The notes beneath the pieces are model-generated. The model made no database searches and was not told the DNA's origin. It saw nothing but the letters and a program-made list of their open reading frames with translations. The position numbers were made by a program, and so were the translations under genes. 64,000 nucleotides of DNA. Origin: Clostridiales bacterium (GTDB lineage Bacteria > Bacillota > Clostridia > Oscillospirales > CAG-272). Positions 25,801 to 42,754 of the stretch are shown in pieces. The DNA lies in NCBI GenBank assembly GCA_012840355.1, contig DULN01000009.1, positions 62,001 to 126,000 on the forward strand, given 5' to 3'. Position 1 is the first letter of the stretch. Every line of letters begins with the position of its first letter.

Positions 25801-25981
25801 TTGAGGGTATATTTTTGTTATTAAGTTATTATATATATCAATTATGAACAATTGTATATTTTTTTGTTAATTTTTATGGCGTGGTTCTTTGCCGAACCTC
25901 TCCGCAGTACTCGATGAGCTTTCACACACTTTAGTATATGTTCCCTATATGCTTGCGGTACATAAAAATGCCTGCACCGAA

Positions 25982-35174: not shown

Positions 35175-35315
35175 CTTCACCAGCTTCCTTTCTTAGAGCA
35201 TATGATAGATAATTATACCCTATTCTTGCAATTTTTTGAAGTCCTTTTTTGACAAAAATATATAAATTCCTTAAGCGATGAACAAAAAAGTACAAAAATA
35301 TACATAGGATTCCTA

Positions 35316-35344
35316 TTGACTTTATATGTTATGGATGCTATACT
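35316..35344 (+). promoter_or_regulatory. Promoter of nifS-mnmA
   Basis: TTGACT (35316-35321), 17-bp spacer, TATACT (35339-35344), so transcription starts near 35351, only about 20 bp before the preferred ATG. This places the start codon downstream and argues against the longer frame beginning at GTG 35354. Confidence 0.65.
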
Positions 35345-35371
35345 TTCCCCGTAGTGTTTATGGGTAATAAA

Positions 35372-36526
35372 ATGACAGTTTACGCCGACAATGCGGCAAC
35401 AACCAAAATCAGCCCCGCCGCGCTTAAAGCGATGCTGCCCTATCTTGATGAGGCATACGCCAACCCTTCAAGCATCCATTCAGCCGGCAAAGCGGCGGCT
35501 GACGCGGTTTACCGAGCAAGGGTAGAGCTTGCAGAAAACCTCGGATGCTTGCCGAACGAGCTTTACTTTACATCGGGCGGCAGCGAGGCTAACAACCAAG
35601 CGATTCTAACGGCTGCTGAAATCGGCGCGGCGGAAAATAAAAAACATATAATTACGTCAAAAATTGAGCACCCATCAGTTTTACGAGTGCTGAAGCGGCT
35701 TGGCACGCAAGGTTACGAGATAACCCTGCTCGACGTTGGCGAAAACGGGATTGTCTCGCTCGCCGACGTCGAGCGCGCGATACGACCCGACACATGCCTT
35801 GTTACAATAATGGCGGCAAACAACGAGATCGGCACAATCCAGCCCGCCGCCGAAATAGGCGAAATATGCCGGAAGTTTAGCGTGCTTTTTCACACCGACG
35901 CGGTATCCGCCGCGGGATACATCGACATTAAGCCTGGCGCGCTTTGTGCCGATTTGCTTTCCCTCTCAGCCCACAAGTTTCACGGCCCGAAAGGTATTGG
36001 CCTGCTATATGCGAAAAAAGGCGTCATGCCGTCGCAGCTGATTTTAGGAGGCTCTCAGGAGCGCGGGCGGCGCGCGGGCACGCTTAACGTGCCGGCAATA
36101 GTTGGCATGGCGGCGGCGTTCAGCGAGGCATGCGTGAATATGGCAAAGGATAACCAAAAGATCGCGCGGCTGCGCGACAAAATCATCGAGGGGCTGCTCT
36201 CTATCCCCGGCGCGAAACTGCACGGCGACAGGACGCGGCGGCTAGCCGGCAACATAAACGTCGGCTTTGGCGGTATAAGCGGCGAGTCTCTGCTTTTAGC
36301 GCTTGACAGCTTTGGCATTATGGTCTCGACCGGCTCGGCATGCGAAGCCGGAGCCGCCGAGCCGAGCCATGTGTTACTTGCGCTTGGACTCTCCGAAAAG
36401 GAGGCTAAAAGCGCCATCCGCATCACGCTTGGCAGGTACAATACCGAACTCGAGGCTAACTATATTGTCGAGTGCACTGCCAAAGCTGTCGGGCGGCTAA
36501 GAAGCATTGCGAATCTTGAGTTTTGA
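35372..36526 (+). CDS. Cysteine desulfurase (NifS/IscS family)
   Basis: 384 aa from ATG 35372; ATG 35360 is the alternative, and the ribosome-binding site is weak for both. PLP enzyme that moves sulfur from cysteine to acceptor proteins. Seen: TVYADNAATTKIS, FTSGGSEANNQA, the PLP Lys in SLSAHKFHGPKGIG, and the catalytic Cys in STGSACEAG, the loop typical of group I desulfurases. The next gene is mnmA, 22 bp away, so sulfur donation to tRNA thiolation is its likely job. Cysteine supply genes lie a few kb to the right. Confidence 0.93.
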   Translation: MTVYADNAATTKISPAALKAMLPYLDEAYANPSSIHSAGKAAADAVYRARVELAENLGCLPNELYFTSGGSEANNQAILTAAEIGAAENKKHIITSKIEHPSVLRVLKRLGTQGYEITLLDVGENGIVSLADVERAIRPDTCLVTIMAANNEIGTIQPAAEIGEICRKFSVLFHTDAVSAAGYIDIKPGALCADLLSLSAHKFHGPKGIGLLYAKKGVMPSQLILGGSQERGRRAGTLNVPAIVGMAAAFSEACVNMAKDNQKIARLRDKIIEGLLSIPGAKLHGDRTRRLAGNINVGFGGISGESLLLALDSFGIMVSTGSACEAGAAEPSHVLLALGLSEKEAKSAIRITLGRYNTELEANYIVECTAKAVGRLRSIANLEF

Positions 36527-37613: not shown

Positions 37614-37653
37614 TGGCTTAATATAAAATTTTTAAAAGAAAGTGGTATGCATC

Positions 37654-39036
37654 ATGAGCAAACGCAATTTTACAAATCTCGCATACGACTCATCTGACGA
37701 GCTCGTTTACTCGCGCGCCAAATATCCCATAAACCTTTCTAACGGCATGTCAATCGGCGGCGGCACGCTTTATCCTGAAATCAACTTCACCCTCCCCCCG
37801 ATGCCGATAGAAGAGTCCACAATGCCGGAAATTTTAGGCATCTATAAGGACATCATCGAAGGTATCTGCAAAAGGGCAAAAGAGCTGTCCGTCCCTGGTT
37901 TTGTCGCCGAAATTGAGACGCTGCCTCCGATGACCGAAAACCCCAAGTGGGGCTTTGAGGTCTGCAAGACGGTCGTTGACGTCATAAAGGAGCATGAAGC
38001 AAAGCATGGCATCAAGGCTGCCGTCCGGATAACCCCCAATGACATCCGCGAAGGCCCGCAGCTTGTGCATATGTGGCGCGGCTCCGAATGGGAGCGGATG
38101 CTTGAAACTTTCGAGGGCTGCGCTAAAGCGGGTGCCAGTTTCCTTGCCATTGAGTCGGTGGGCGGAAAAGAAATCCACGACGAGGCGGTCATTAGCTGCG
38201 ACCTTGCAAAATCGCTTTTCGCGCTCGCGGTGCTCGGCTGCAAAGATATGAACAAGCTGTGGGATGAAATTGTGGCTATTGCCGACAAAACCGGCGCGAT
38301 CGCTAGCGGCGACACTGCGTGCGGGTTCGGCAACACCGCTATGGTGCTTGCCGAGAAAAACTATATCCCCAAAGTCTTCGCCGCGACAATTAGGGTCATG
38401 ACCGCGGTGCGCAGCCTTGTGGCATTCGAGTGCGGCGCGCGCGGTCCGCATAAGGACTGTGGATACGAGGGCGTTTACATAAAGGCGATTACCGGCACGC
38501 CTATCTCGACAGAAGGGCGGGTTGCGGCTTGCGCTCACCTGTCGCCGGTCGGCAATGTGGCGGTTTGCATGGCGGACCTCTGGAGCAACGAGTCCGTCCA
38601 GCATATAAAGCTCCTCGGCGGCATGGCGCCAACCGTATCGTTCGAGCAGCTTGCTTACGACTGCCGCATGCTCAACGAAGGCAGCGCAAGGGGCAAAGAA
38701 ACAGCCCTGCTTTTGCGCGACCTATGCGCCGACTCTGACTCAAGGCTCGACCCGCAGGCGTATGTGCTGCGCCCCGACGTTGTTTTCGAGATTTCAAAGC
38801 AGCTCGTCGAGACCGATGGCTATTACAACCGCACCAAAGCGGCGGCAAAGCTCGCAATTGAGGCGATGCGCGAAGGCTCGGAGTCCGGGCGGCTAACGCT
38901 TTCCGAGCGCGAGAAAGGCTGGCTTGATATCCTCACAAGCCAGCTTGACGAACTGCCTGACGACGAGGCCGAATTTGTCGAGTCCATGCTGCCCGAGTGC
39001 GATAAAAAAATCCTTGCAAGATACGATCTCGCATAA
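37654..39036 (+). CDS. mtaB: Methanol:corrinoid methyltransferase MtaB-like
   Basis: 460 aa from ATG 37654. It aligns over its full length from memory with Methanosarcina MtaB, which transfers the methyl of methanol to a corrinoid protein. The three zinc ligands are kept: Glu167 in AIESVGGKE, Cys223 in SGDTACGFGNT and Cys269 in GARGPHKDCGYE, as is SLVAFECGARGPHKDCGYE. No mtaC corrinoid protein, mtaA or activator is next to it; the neighbours are mnmA upstream and a terminator downstream. Acetogens use similar enzymes, and divergent members may act on other methyl donors. Gene identity is firm, physiological substrate is not. Confidence 0.88.
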   Translation: MSKRNFTNLAYDSSDELVYSRAKYPINLSNGMSIGGGTLYPEINFTLPPMPIEESTMPEILGIYKDIIEGICKRAKELSVPGFVAEIETLPPMTENPKWGFEVCKTVVDVIKEHEAKHGIKAAVRITPNDIREGPQLVHMWRGSEWERMLETFEGCAKAGASFLAIESVGGKEIHDEAVISCDLAKSLFALAVLGCKDMNKLWDEIVAIADKTGAIASGDTACGFGNTAMVLAEKNYIPKVFAATIRVMTAVRSLVAFECGARGPHKDCGYEGVYIKAITGTPISTEGRVAACAHLSPVGNVAVCMADLWSNESVQHIKLLGGMAPTVSFEQLAYDCRMLNEGSARGKETALLLRDLCADSDSRLDPQAYVLRPDVVFEISKQLVETDGYYNRTKAAAKLAIEAMREGSESGRLTLSEREKGWLDILTSQLDELPDDEAEFVESMLPECDKKILARYDLA

Positions 39037-39092: not shown

Positions 39093-40232
39093 CTAATTGC
39101 TTTCCAGTGCCTGCCGAAGGTCTTCTATGAGGTCACATGGCGATTCAATCCCGACCGAAAGCCGCAAAAGGCAGCCGTTTATCCCCTTTTTCTCCCTCTC
39201 TTCCGCGGGTATGTCCGCGTGGGTCTGCAGCATCGGGTATGTTATAAGGCTCTCGACTCCGCCGAGGCTTTCGGCGTATTTTATTATCTTGACATTTTCA
39301 AGCACCGCACGCGCTCTAGTGGGGCTATCTACCGCGAAAGAAATCATCGCGCCGAATCCTGTCGCCTGCCTTTTTAAAATATCATGGCCCGGATGATCTG
39401 GCAAGCCTGGATAATACACTTTCTTCACGTTTTTATGCCCTTTTAGCCAGCTTGCGATTTTTTTAGCCGAGTCCTCTTGCCGCTCGAGCCTCACCGCTAG
39501 CGTTTTTATCCCCCGCAAAAGCAAGAAGCTGTCAAACGGCGAAAGGCAAGCGCCGATGGTCTTTGCGACAAACCGCAACTTTTCGGCTAAGCCCGCGTCG
39601 GCTGCGACGAGGAAGCCGGCAAGGGTGTCGTTGTGCCCGCCAAGGTACTTTGTGCCGCTATGTAACACGATGTCTGCGCCGAGCACAAGCGGGCGCTGAA
39701 AATATGGCGTCAGAAAAGTGTTGTCGACAACAAGAAGCAGCCCATTAGCTTTGCAAATCCGGGCAATTTCGGCAAGGTCGGTCACCTGCATCATAGGGTT
39801 CGTCGGGGACTCTACAAAAACAGCCCGCGTCTCTGGGGCAATTGCCGCCTCCACTGCGCCAGGATTTGACGTGTCGACAAAATCATACTTCAGTCCGTTT
39901 TTTGACGAAATGCTCCGAAAAAGCCTGTGAGTCCCGCCATAAAGGTCGTCGGATACAATCAGCCGCTCGCCGGGAGAAAAAAGCTCCATCAGCGCCATAA
40001 GCGCTGCCATGCCCGACGAGAATGCAATCGCGTCCACTCCGCCCTCGAGCGCGGCAATCGTGCTCTCTAGGTACTCGCGCGTCGGGTTTTGCACACGAGT
40101 GTAATCAAAACCGGTGCTTTGCCCTACGCCGGGATGCGCGAAAGTGGCGGACTGAAAAATCGGCACGCTTATCGAGCCGGTGGTGTCATACCTTTTGCCG
40201 CTCCCATGAACGCATAAGGTCGAAAAATCCAT
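39093..40232 (-). CDS. Cys/Met-metabolism PLP enzyme (cystathionine gamma-synthase/lyase type)
   Basis: 379 aa. PLP-dependent gamma-family enzyme: ATFAHPG, DYTRVQNPTREYLE, FSSGMAALMAL, the PLP Lys in LHSGTKYLGGHND, and LGGVESLITYPMLQTH at the end. The family includes cystathionine gamma-synthase, gamma-lyase and homocysteine lyases, and sequence alone does not separate them well. The position, 14 bp from the Rrf2 regulator of cysteine genes and on its strand, favours a lyase that frees cysteine or sulfide (MccB-like). Confidence 0.88.
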   Translation of the reverse strand: MDFSTLCVHGSGKRYDTTGSISVPIFQSATFAHPGVGQSTGFDYTRVQNPTREYLESTIAALEGGVDAIAFSSGMAALMALMELFSPGERLIVSDDLYGGTHRLFRSISSKNGLKYDFVDTSNPGAVEAAIAPETRAVFVESPTNPMMQVTDLAEIARICKANGLLLVVDNTFLTPYFQRPLVLGADIVLHSGTKYLGGHNDTLAGFLVAADAGLAEKLRFVAKTIGACLSPFDSFLLLRGIKTLAVRLERQEDSAKKIASWLKGHKNVKKVYYPGLPDHPGHDILKRQATGFGAMISFAVDSPTRARAVLENVKIIKYAESLGGVESLITYPMLQTHADIPAEEREKKGINGCLLRLSVGIESPCDLIEDLRQALESN

Positions 40233-40246
40233 ATAATGCTCTCCGG

Positions 40247-40693
40247 TTAGATGTAATACATTTCAGCGCTGTTTTCGATATGTTTTACCGTTTCTTTTAG
40301 CATATCCGCAAGCGTTACCGCGCCGAGCGCGTCGCGGACGCTTTTGTCGAGCGGCTCGTATACGCATGCCTCAAGCGCTTTCTCAATCTCCGGCGCTGTT
40401 TCCGGCACCGTTTTCTGCGTATGCTCGAACAGCGATCCTTCCACAGCAGAGAGCACTTGCAGCGCCGTGATACTGCCGGGCTCGCTTATCAGCATATACC
40501 CGCCCTGCGCTCCTTTTGAGGATATGACAAGGTTGGCCTTTTTCAGCAGCGTGAACACCTGTTCGAGATATATTTTAGAAAGCCCTAGCTTTTCCGAAAT
40601 GCTCGACGCCGTGACATAACTCCCACTTTCGTAAAGGCGCGCCATCTCTATCGCCGCCGCAAGCGCATATCGTCCTCTGGCAGATACTCTCAT
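40247..40693 (-). CDS. Rrf2 family transcriptional regulator (CymR-like)
   Basis: 148 aa. The N-terminal winged helix has RGRYALAAAIEMAR, SSISEKLGLSKIYLEQVFTLL and the wing SKGAQGGYML. Unlike IscR it has only one Cys (in EACVYE) and no three-Cys cluster motif, as in CymR, the cysteine repressor that works with CysK. It is divergent from cysK and shares with it an intergenic space holding dyad repeats, one of which lies just in front of its own start, suggesting autoregulation. Regulation of cysteine synthesis in response to sulfur is the likely role. Confidence 0.9.
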   Translation of the reverse strand: MRVSARGRYALAAAIEMARLYESGSYVTASSISEKLGLSKIYLEQVFTLLKKANLVISSKGAQGGYMLISEPGSITALQVLSAVEGSLFEHTQKTVPETAPEIEKALEACVYEPLDKSVRDALGAVTLADMLKETVKHIENSAEMYYI

Positions 40694-40707: not shown

Positions 40708-40728
40708 ATCATATATAGTTAGTATGCA
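40708..40728. promoter_or_regulatory. Degenerate operator dyad in front of the Rrf2 gene
   Basis: ATCATA-N9-TATGCA, one mismatch per half-site from the TTCATA-N9-TATGAA dyads near cysK, with the same 9-bp spacer. It lies 15 bp upstream of the regulator's start codon. Confidence 0.45.
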
Positions 40729-40776
40729 TTAATGATAACCTATTCGTATATATTTGTCAATAGTCGCACCGAAAAT

Positions 40777-40797
40777 TTCATAGAAATTCTATATGAA
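40777..40797. promoter_or_regulatory. Operator dyad upstream of the cysK promoter
   Basis: TTCATA-N9-TATGAA with perfect half-sites, ending 15 bp before the -35 box of cysK. Likely bound by the divergently encoded Rrf2 regulator; inferred from repetition and position. Confidence 0.55.
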
Positions 40798-40812
40798 TTT
40801 TTATAAAAGGTA

Positions 40813-40841
40813 TTGACAAATCGGCTATGTTGGAATATTAT
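40813..40841 (+). promoter_or_regulatory. Promoter of cysK
   Basis: Perfect TTGACA (40813-40818), 17-bp spacer and TATTAT (40836-40841). The words TTGGAATATT spanning the -10 recall the conserved half of the Bacillus CymR site. Transcription should start near 40848, between the two operator dyads. Confidence 0.7.
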
Positions 40842-40852
40842 ATTATCAGTAA

Positions 40853-40873
40853 TTCATATTAATCATATATGAA
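40853..40873. promoter_or_regulatory. Operator dyad downstream of the cysK start site
   Basis: A second perfect TTCATA-N9-TATGAA, in the 5' untranslated region of cysK. Its position would block transcription when occupied. Confidence 0.55.
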
Positions 40874-40902: not shown

Positions 40903-41841
40903 ATGGCACGTGTTTATAAGAGCATAACAGAGCTTGTTGGCAAAACCCCTCTTCTTGAACTTGGAAGGTACGCAAAGGCAAACGAGCTAAAGGCGCGGCT
41001 CATTGGAAAGCTTGAGTACTACAACCCGGCTGGTAGCGTCAAAGACCGGATTGCAAAGGCGATGATCGACGACGCGGAGGAAAGAGGAATCCTAAAGCCC
41101 GGCTCGGTAATTATCGAACCGACCAGCGGCAACACCGGAATAGGCCTTGCGGCGATCGCGGCGGCGCGCGGCTACCGCATAATTTTGACGATGCCCGAGA
41201 CGATGAGCATTGAGCGTCGCAACCTGCTTCGCGCATACGGCGCCGAACTTGTGCTCACCGAAGGCTCTAAGGGCATGTCGGGCGCCATTGCAAAAGCTGA
41301 AGAACTTGCGAAAGAAATTCCCAACTCTTTCATCCCCGGACAGTTTGTCAACCCTGCCAACCCTGAAATCCACCGGCAGACTACCGGCCCGGAGATTTGG
41401 GAAGACACGGACGGCGAAATAGACATTTTCGTAGCCGGTATCGGCACCGGCGGCACCATTACCGGTGCGGGCGAGTATTTGCGGTCAAAAAAGCCGGACC
41501 TTAAAATTGTGGCTGTCGAGCCCGACGCTTCACCGGTCCTTTCGGGCGGCAAGCCCGGGCCGCATAAAATCCAGGGCATTGGTGCAGGGTTTGTCCCGAA
41601 AGTGCTCAACACCTCGATTTACGACGAGATTGTGCGCGTCAAAAACGAGGACGCGTTCGCTACCGGGCGCGCGATCGCTAGGCTCGAAGGGCTACTTGTC
41701 GGTATCTCGTCGGGTGCAGCCGTGTGGGCGGCAACTGAAATCGCTAAACGCCCTGAAAGCGAAGGCAAAACCATCGTCGTAATCCTGCCCGACACCGGCG
41801 AGCGCTACCTCTCGACCCCGTTGTTTTCCGATGAAAAATGA
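40903..41841 (+). CDS. cysK: Cysteine synthase (O-acetylserine sulfhydrylase)
   Basis: 312 aa. PLP enzyme forming cysteine from O-acetylserine and sulfide. PLP Lys in [16 protein letters not shown], phosphate and substrate loop in [13 protein letters not shown], and [15 protein letters not shown] for the cofactor phosphate. GGGAGGA precedes the ATG. In Firmicutes CysK also binds CymR and makes it a repressor when cysteine is plentiful; the divergent Rrf2 gene and its dyads make the same circuit likely here. Confidence 0.95.
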
Positions 41842-41908: not shown

Positions 41909-42754
41909 ATGAAAAGGCAAAAAAGAGTAGCAGCGATTCACGATATCTCCTGCTTTGGGCGGTGCTCGCTAACCGTCGCTCTGCCTATTATCTCCGCCGC
42001 GGGCATCGAGTGCAGCGTTATCCCCACCGCGCTGCTCTCCACCCATACCGGAGGCATCACCGGGTATACATTCCTCGATCTAACAGATGAGATTTTGCCT
42101 ATCGCCTCGCATTGGCAGTCGCTCGGACTTGAGTTTGACGGGCTTTACTCTGGCTTTCTCGGCTCGTTTGAGCAAATTGACGTCGTCTCGGAGGTTTTCG
42201 ACCGGTTCCGCAGTGCGGATAACCTCATTGTCGTCGACCCGGTGATGGCCGACAATGGCGTACTTTACAAGGTATTTCCGCCCACTTTCCCCTCCGGCAT
42301 GAGAAAGCTCTGCGCAAAGGCTGACGTTATTATACCGAACATAACCGAGGCGACTCTGCTGCTTGACGAGCCATACCTCGAAGGTCCTTATACGCAAAGT
42401 TACATTGAAGGCATCCTCGAACGCCTCTCAAAGCTCGGTCCGAAACAGGTGATACTTACCGGCGTATACTTCAAAGGCGACCACCTCGGCGCCGCCTCAT
42501 ATGACGCTCGCACCGGCGAGGTTAGCTACGCTTTCGACCGGCTTATCGAAGGATACTACCACGGCACCGGCGACGTGTTCGGCAGCGCGCTCGTCGCGTC
42601 GCTGATTAGCGGCAAAAGCCTTGCTGAGTCCACCTCAATAGCAGTGGATTTCACGGTTAAAAGCATTTTGCGCACCAAAGCCGCTGGTACCGACATCCGG
42701 TTCGGTGTCAACTTCGAGGCGGGACTCCGCGAGCTTGCCGAAAAGCTGGCTTGA
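41909..42754 (+). CDS. Pyridoxal/pyridoxamine kinase
   Basis: 281 aa, ribokinase-like fold of the PdxY type. Phosphorylates B6 vitamers to PLP, the cofactor of CysK, NifS, the Cys/Met lyase and the aminotransferases in this window. Seen: AAIHDISCFGRCSLTVALPI, LLSTHTGGITGYTF, VDPVMADNG, NITEATLLL and YHGTGDVFGSALVASL with the catalytic Asp. It follows cysK by 67 bp, with no terminator between, so co-transcription is possible. Confidence 0.92.
   Translation: MKRQKRVAAIHDISCFGRCSLTVALPIISAAGIECSVIPTALLSTHTGGITGYTFLDLTDEILPIASHWQSLGLEFDGLYSGFLGSFEQIDVVSEVFDRFRSADNLIVVDPVMADNGVLYKVFPPTFPSGMRKLCAKADVIIPNITEATLLLDEPYLEGPYTQSYIEGILERLSKLGPKQVILTGVYFKGDHLGAASYDARTGEVSYAFDRLIEGYYHGTGDVFGSALVASLISGKSLAESTSIAVDFTVKSILRTKAAGTDIRFGVNFEAGLRELAEKLA

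Follow-up and report, generated by a model that had tools for sequence, protein, structure and literature searches.

The described systems closest to the locus analysed here are the CymR–CysK pair of Bacillus subtilis and Staphylococcus aureus and the Fe-S regulator IscR. Under high cysteine and low O-acetylserine, the cysteine synthase CysK keeps CymR on DNA (PMC2940859, PMC3828012), and a model places the C-terminus of B. subtilis CymR inside CysK as an anchor (PMC11487621). Little has been described of how anaerobic Clostridia control cysteine synthesis; what is known for C. perfringens is mainly control by T-box and S-box RNAs (PMC2940859).

In the 64-kb window, by which we mean the whole stretch of DNA analysed, a gene for an Rrf2-family regulator (40247-40693, minus strand; 148 aa with one Cys and the C-terminus MYYI) diverges from cysK, which encodes cysteine synthase A (40903-41841, plus strand; TIGR01139, 471 bits against a cut-off of 351). 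Downstream of the regulator gene, and probably co-transcribed with it, lies a gene for a Cys/Met-metabolism PLP enzyme of the cystathionine lyase type (39093-40232, minus strand), an order that was found again in many relatives. A pyridoxamine kinase gene (41909-42754, plus strand; PRK07105 above cut-off) adjoins cysK, as it does in relative L074 too. Further away, a nifS-type cysteine desulfurase gene (35354-36526, plus strand) is a possible member of the same regulon. Between nifS-mnmA and the cystathionine lyase gene, we also observed a methanol:corrinoid methyltransferase MtaB-like gene (37642-39036; 421 bits, short of the cut-off of 720), of which a 70% identical version lies close to the Rrf2 gene of relative L128.

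The initial annotation described two perfect dyads around the cysK promoter and a third, with one mismatch in each half, in front of the start of the regulator gene, and both the coordinates and the sequence agree with this. The perfect TTCATA-N9-TATGAA dyads, O2 (40777-40797, TTCATAGAAATTCTATATGAA) and O3 (40853-40873, TTCATATTAATCATATATGAA), bracket a sigma-A-like cysK promoter on the plus strand (40813-40841), with its -35 box TTGACA at 40813-40818, a spacer of 17 bp and its -10 box TATTAT at 40836-40841; counterparts of this promoter occur in most relatives. O2 ends 15 bp upstream of the -35 box, while O3 starts 11 bp past the -10 box, over the initially transcribed region of cysK. The imperfect dyad O1 (40708-40728, ATCATATATAGTTAGTATGCA) precedes the divergent Rrf2 gene, whose promoter on the minus strand (40732-40760) consists of TTGACA (40755-40760), N17 and TATCAT (40732-40737). 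O1, the proposed site of autoregulation, starts 3 bp past this -10 box and ends 14 bp ahead of the Rrf2 ATG. TTGGAAT (40830-40836), suggested to echo the Bacillus CymR site, is unconserved in relatives, and the resemblance looks like coincidence.

Because the region is AT-rich, TATA-like sequence at two divergent promoters might have produced pseudo-dyads by chance, and loose matches in the genome indeed equal their control. In a first-order Markov model of the 209-bp intergenic region, however, at least one perfect dyad arises with P = 0.0004, and two perfect dyads did not occur once in 200,000 trials; the exact spacing is, moreover, kept across many genera. With the footprinting below also contradicting it, we regard chance as barely conceivable.

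For this footprinting, which the initial annotation had proposed, we compared 52 non-redundant cysK/Rrf2 intergenic regions of relatives, with the window left out. The dyad with exactly nine intervening bases and at most one mismatch was retained in 35 of the 52 regions (46 matches against a Markov expectation of 0.28), whereas every other spacing from 3 to 15 gave no more than one match, N13 with seven excepted. An EM motif search with a zero-order background drifted to AT-rich sequence and was replaced by a per-sequence model with a second-order background. Run on each half of the regions, this unsupervised search returned TTTCATA-N9-TATGT beside rrf2 and CATANNAAACATATATG beside cysK, the latter being the strongest conserved motif of the relatives and the counterpart of O3. 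The position of O1 is occupied in relatives by TTCATATATAAATAGTATGTA. When a symmetric matrix built solely from the relatives' sites was applied to the window, O3, O2 and O1 came out as ranks 1, 2 and 3 of the 64 kb, at 30.0, 25.1 and 19.8 bits. O2 is conserved in only a minority of relatives: of the 49 regions (the window among them) in which a promoter was recognised, 15 had a scored middle site, and most of these sites, though not all, lay some 10-24 bp from the -35 box.

The same comparison bears on the idea that O3 is a transcribed inverted repeat, forming a hairpin in the leader of the cysK mRNA. O3 would indeed span roughly +5 to +25 of the transcript predicted for cysK. The dyad, however, also occurs upstream of the cysK -35 box, at the rrf2 start in the opposite direction and over the -35 box of nifS, where a role in RNA is impossible or unlikely, and the spacers vary from site to site while both half-sites are kept. 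An RNA element is thus extremely unlikely, and the three dyads are very probably operators of the neighbouring Rrf2 regulator.

Relatives of the regulator were distributed unevenly. Among 79 genomes that share the window's genus, family or order, none had a close version, their Rrf2 genes being about 26-41% identical; versions 46-64% identical were found in genomes of other families of the class, often in the order lyase-rrf2-(divergent)-cysK. The cassette thus occurs only patchily within the window's own group, where it may be an acquisition. A scan of GTDB genomes added 80 further loci, mostly from Clostridia, together with some under Negativicutes-type labels and one from a spirochaete MAG. 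Among these subfamily loci, a position beside cysK is the most frequent arrangement, with some members lying elsewhere. As the peptide patterns used to collect the relatives include the recognition helix, the uniformity of that helix is partly a product of how they were selected.

The strongest argument that protein and site belong together is their co-occurrence in a held-out set of 43 subfamily Rrf2 genes without a divergent cysK, none of which had been used in training. At a threshold of 13 bits, an upstream site was present in 36 of the 43, mostly ending 11-20 bp ahead of the start codon, and in 0 of 29 other Rrf2 genes (about 30-40% identical; shuffles gave 0.05), so that the site travels with this particular Rrf2 subfamily. 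The same test speaks against the dyads serving another regulator of cysteine genes, such as the second, IscR-like Rrf2 protein (C1:9597). The genome does encode three Rrf2 proteins, and the second gene stands directly upstream of a second cysK; yet relatives of the second type are among the 29 genes that lack the site, and nothing upstream of the second Rrf2 gene itself scores above 11 bits, which leaves this alternative very unlikely. Footprinting and held-out co-occurrence thus support the initial proposal that the dyad is the operator of the divergent Rrf2 protein, as predicted from sequence. The same evidence, together with further sites at sulfur genes in this genome and in relatives, supports the predicted autoregulation and control of cysK.

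Sequence and structure comparisons place the regulator in the Rrf2 superfamily (TIGR00738, 89.2 bits against a cut-off of 73.3), and far below the cut-offs of both the CymR equivalog NF047409 (82.2 bits against 195) and IscR TIGR02010 (82.4 against 207.55). The NF047409 model matches 20 of 20 subfamily members, with a best E-value of 5e-31. An AlphaFold model of the regulator has a mean pLDDT of 84, with low confidence for the last six residues; its best PDB matches are all Rrf2 proteins, the closest being T. potens IscR and B. subtilis CymR. The C-terminus reads M[FY][FY]I in each of the 79 complete proteins of the subfamily, corresponding at the sequence level to the aromatic-Ile tail of CymR. 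The three conserved Fe-S-binding cysteines of IscR are absent from the window protein and from the subfamily, and an identification of the regulator as IscR was rejected for lack of these cluster cysteines.

We consider it likely that the Rrf2 protein encoded at 40247-40693 uses the dyads as its operators and acts as a CymR-like repressor of cysteine synthesis, one that probably senses through CysK; binding, repression and sensing are all inferred. In this model, an Rrf2 dimer would read two half-sites in a fixed register, with the core CATA-N9-TATG and TTCATA-N9-TATGAA as its best form. Bound at O1, the regulator would cover the start region of its own promoter; its occupation of O3 (and O2) would obstruct RNA polymerase at the cysK promoter or trap it there. 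The genes predicted to be repressed are cysK, rrf2 and the cystathionine lyase gene, along with an O-acetylhomoserine sulfhydrylase gene elsewhere in the genome and possibly nifS-mnmA. Repression fits the placing of the sites, which lie past the -10 boxes of the cysK, rrf2 and sulfhydrylase genes and, at nifS, overlap the -35 box. With cysteine plentiful and O-acetylserine low, the Met-aromatic-aromatic-Ile tail would fill the active site of CysK and the complex would stay on DNA; under cysteine starvation, O-acetylserine would displace the tail from CysK and the genes would come on. The four-residue tail and the gene order point to CysK as the probable sensor, by analogy with CymR.

A less likely, though still appreciable, alternative accepts the dyads as genuine operators of the Rrf2 protein, but the protein would respond to thiol redox, sulfide or a cofactor rather than to CysK and O-acetylserine, and might also activate. 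Rrf2 proteins are known to answer to signals as diverse as Fe-S clusters, NO and, in S. aureus CymR, thiol oxidation (PMC9338935); some subfamily members carry one or two cysteines (the window protein has one), and some lie away from cysK. However, cysteine is entirely lacking from 52 of 81 members, so that there is no conserved thiol or Fe-S ligand, and the invariant tail together with the prevalence of cysK adjacency argues for the CysK-linked, CymR-like repressor.

Our survey of the window's own genome combined pattern searches with use of the matrix on chosen stretches. A mismatch-free pattern search returned only the two cysK dyads and one further site, upstream of an O-acetylhomoserine sulfhydrylase gene (C7:448206-449462; TIGR01326, 597 bits against a cut-off of 495); the pattern had been drawn partly from this last site, whereas the matrix that first found it had not. 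The site, ATCATATCAAAATAGTATGCA (20.5 bits), lies a few bp past the -10 box of a TTGACA-N17-TAAAAT promoter. A weaker candidate operator, TTCCTATTGACTTTATATGTT (35310-35330; 16.7 bits, rank 4 in the window), is situated 5 kb from the cysK dyads and overlaps the -35 box of the nifS-mnmA promoter (TTGACT 35316-35321, N17, TATACT 35339-35344). We treat it as a tentative operator, since genome matches of similar score exist without sulfur context. Loose matches with one mismatch show no excess in this genome (83 against 80 in the control) and are for that reason not taken as evidence; the predicted regulon here is accordingly small. The absence of the dyad from sulfur genes, which the initial annotation would have taken as a refutation, was thus not observed: sites occur at the O-acetylhomoserine sulfhydrylase gene, tentatively at nifS-mnmA, and at sulfur genes of relatives, although loose matches show no genome-wide excess.

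Among the candidates set aside in this genome, a 21.7-bit matrix match at the 3' end of a radC-like gene has no sulfur context and is probably chance, and the matches of 14-22 bits at this and the MarR, phospholipase D / DpaA, GNAT and NusG regions, likewise without sulfur context, were taken as chance. An AT-rich, intergenic partial match at 25828-25848 (15.4 bits) adjoins no recognised sulfur gene. We also noted that the second Rrf2-cysK pair (G000:C1:9597-10977; L210), in which an Rrf2 protein with three cysteines and the C-terminus DYSI is encoded directly upstream of the second cysK, is without the dyad, which leaves the cell with two cysteine-synthase modules that differ in their wiring.

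Across 14 relatives' genomes, with one repeat family excluded, the AT-spaced dyad was found at 52 places against 13 for the reversed control. The sequence ATCATAGATGAATTTTATGAT has 19 copies in G295 (e.g. C1:368789, 1030271 and 1738624) and is evidently a dispersed repeat that matches the pattern by chance. Sites outside the cysK/Rrf2 locus precede genes for O-acetylhomoserine sulfhydrylases, a sulfate-binding protein, a second cysK/Rrf2 pair, M20 peptidases and a cystine-type permease; some others are without evident sulfur context (MFS, PadR, a short-chain dehydrogenase, or positions within genes). In G266 (L192 / L246, C1:2152500-2168000), genes for a PatB C-S lyase and an M20 peptidase are followed by one for a MarD-like nitrogenase homologue, and operator-like dyads stand ahead of both the M20 peptidase gene and the MarD-like gene. 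The best PDB matches of the MarD-like protein are 9d9u and 9fmg (422 bits), with nitrogenases reaching at most 129; 9FMG is the methylthio-alkane reductase of PMC12552129. The putative methylthio-alkane reductase of G266 is possibly under cysteine control. Dyads also occur upstream of URO-D superfamily methyltransferase genes in L191 and L209, one of them of the MtaA/CmuA type, in settings that recall the methyl-sulfur clusters of PMC10418091. Taken together, the predicted regulon resembles that of CymR in covering cysteine synthesis and sulfur uptake, with sites at the cysK, cystathionine lyase and O-acetylhomoserine sulfhydrylase genes here and, in relatives, predicted targets in sulfate and cystine-type transporters, M20 peptidases and the PatB-MarD cluster.

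With a defined operator and its matrix, sulfur regulons become listable in many uncultured and gut anaerobes, and short DNA probes made from the operator would allow a direct test of binding. The sites additionally provide a regulatory handle on methylthio-alkane reductase and corrinoid methyltransferase clusters, whose roles are debated. Our literature search found no published description of a CATA-N9-TATG operator; an entry in RegPrecise is possible.

Compared with known systems, the locus most resembles CymR–CysK of B. subtilis and S. aureus, with which it shares an Rrf2 fold without an Fe-S cluster, the aromatic-Ile tail, a genetic link to cysK and predicted targets in cysteine synthesis (cysK, the cystathionine lyase type and uptake). 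It departs from CymR in protein sequence (about 30-32% identity to 2y75, and 82 bits against the equivalog cut-off of 195) and in its predicted operator, with the core CATA-N9-TATG in place of CC/GG-type half-sites. The one published site that we compared, that of B. subtilis cysK (CATAATACCAATACAAATAGTCGGAAATTGAGGT; PMC11487621), reaches -6.5 bits under the operator matrix, which fits the earlier expectation of a probably new recognition sequence. The predicted CymR of C. acetobutylicum, CAC2236 (PMC3828012), likewise is an Rrf2 protein encoded next to cysK with a predicted cysteine regulon, but its sites were proposed from a scan with a Staphylococcaceae matrix. IscR of E. coli and T. potens (4cic) has the same fold, and the T. 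potens protein, at 36% identity, is the closest solved relative; the present regulator differs in lacking conserved cluster-ligand cysteines and in being directed at cysteine synthesis rather than Fe-S assembly, nifS being at most one member of its regulon. On balance, we lean slightly towards a distinct and widespread Rrf2 subfamily of anaerobic Clostridia and their neighbours, neither CymR nor IscR and with an operator of its own, that would serve as the main cysteine/sulfur repressor and, in some of these organisms, would also govern the scavenging of methylated sulfur, including a nitrogenase-like methylthio-alkane reductase.
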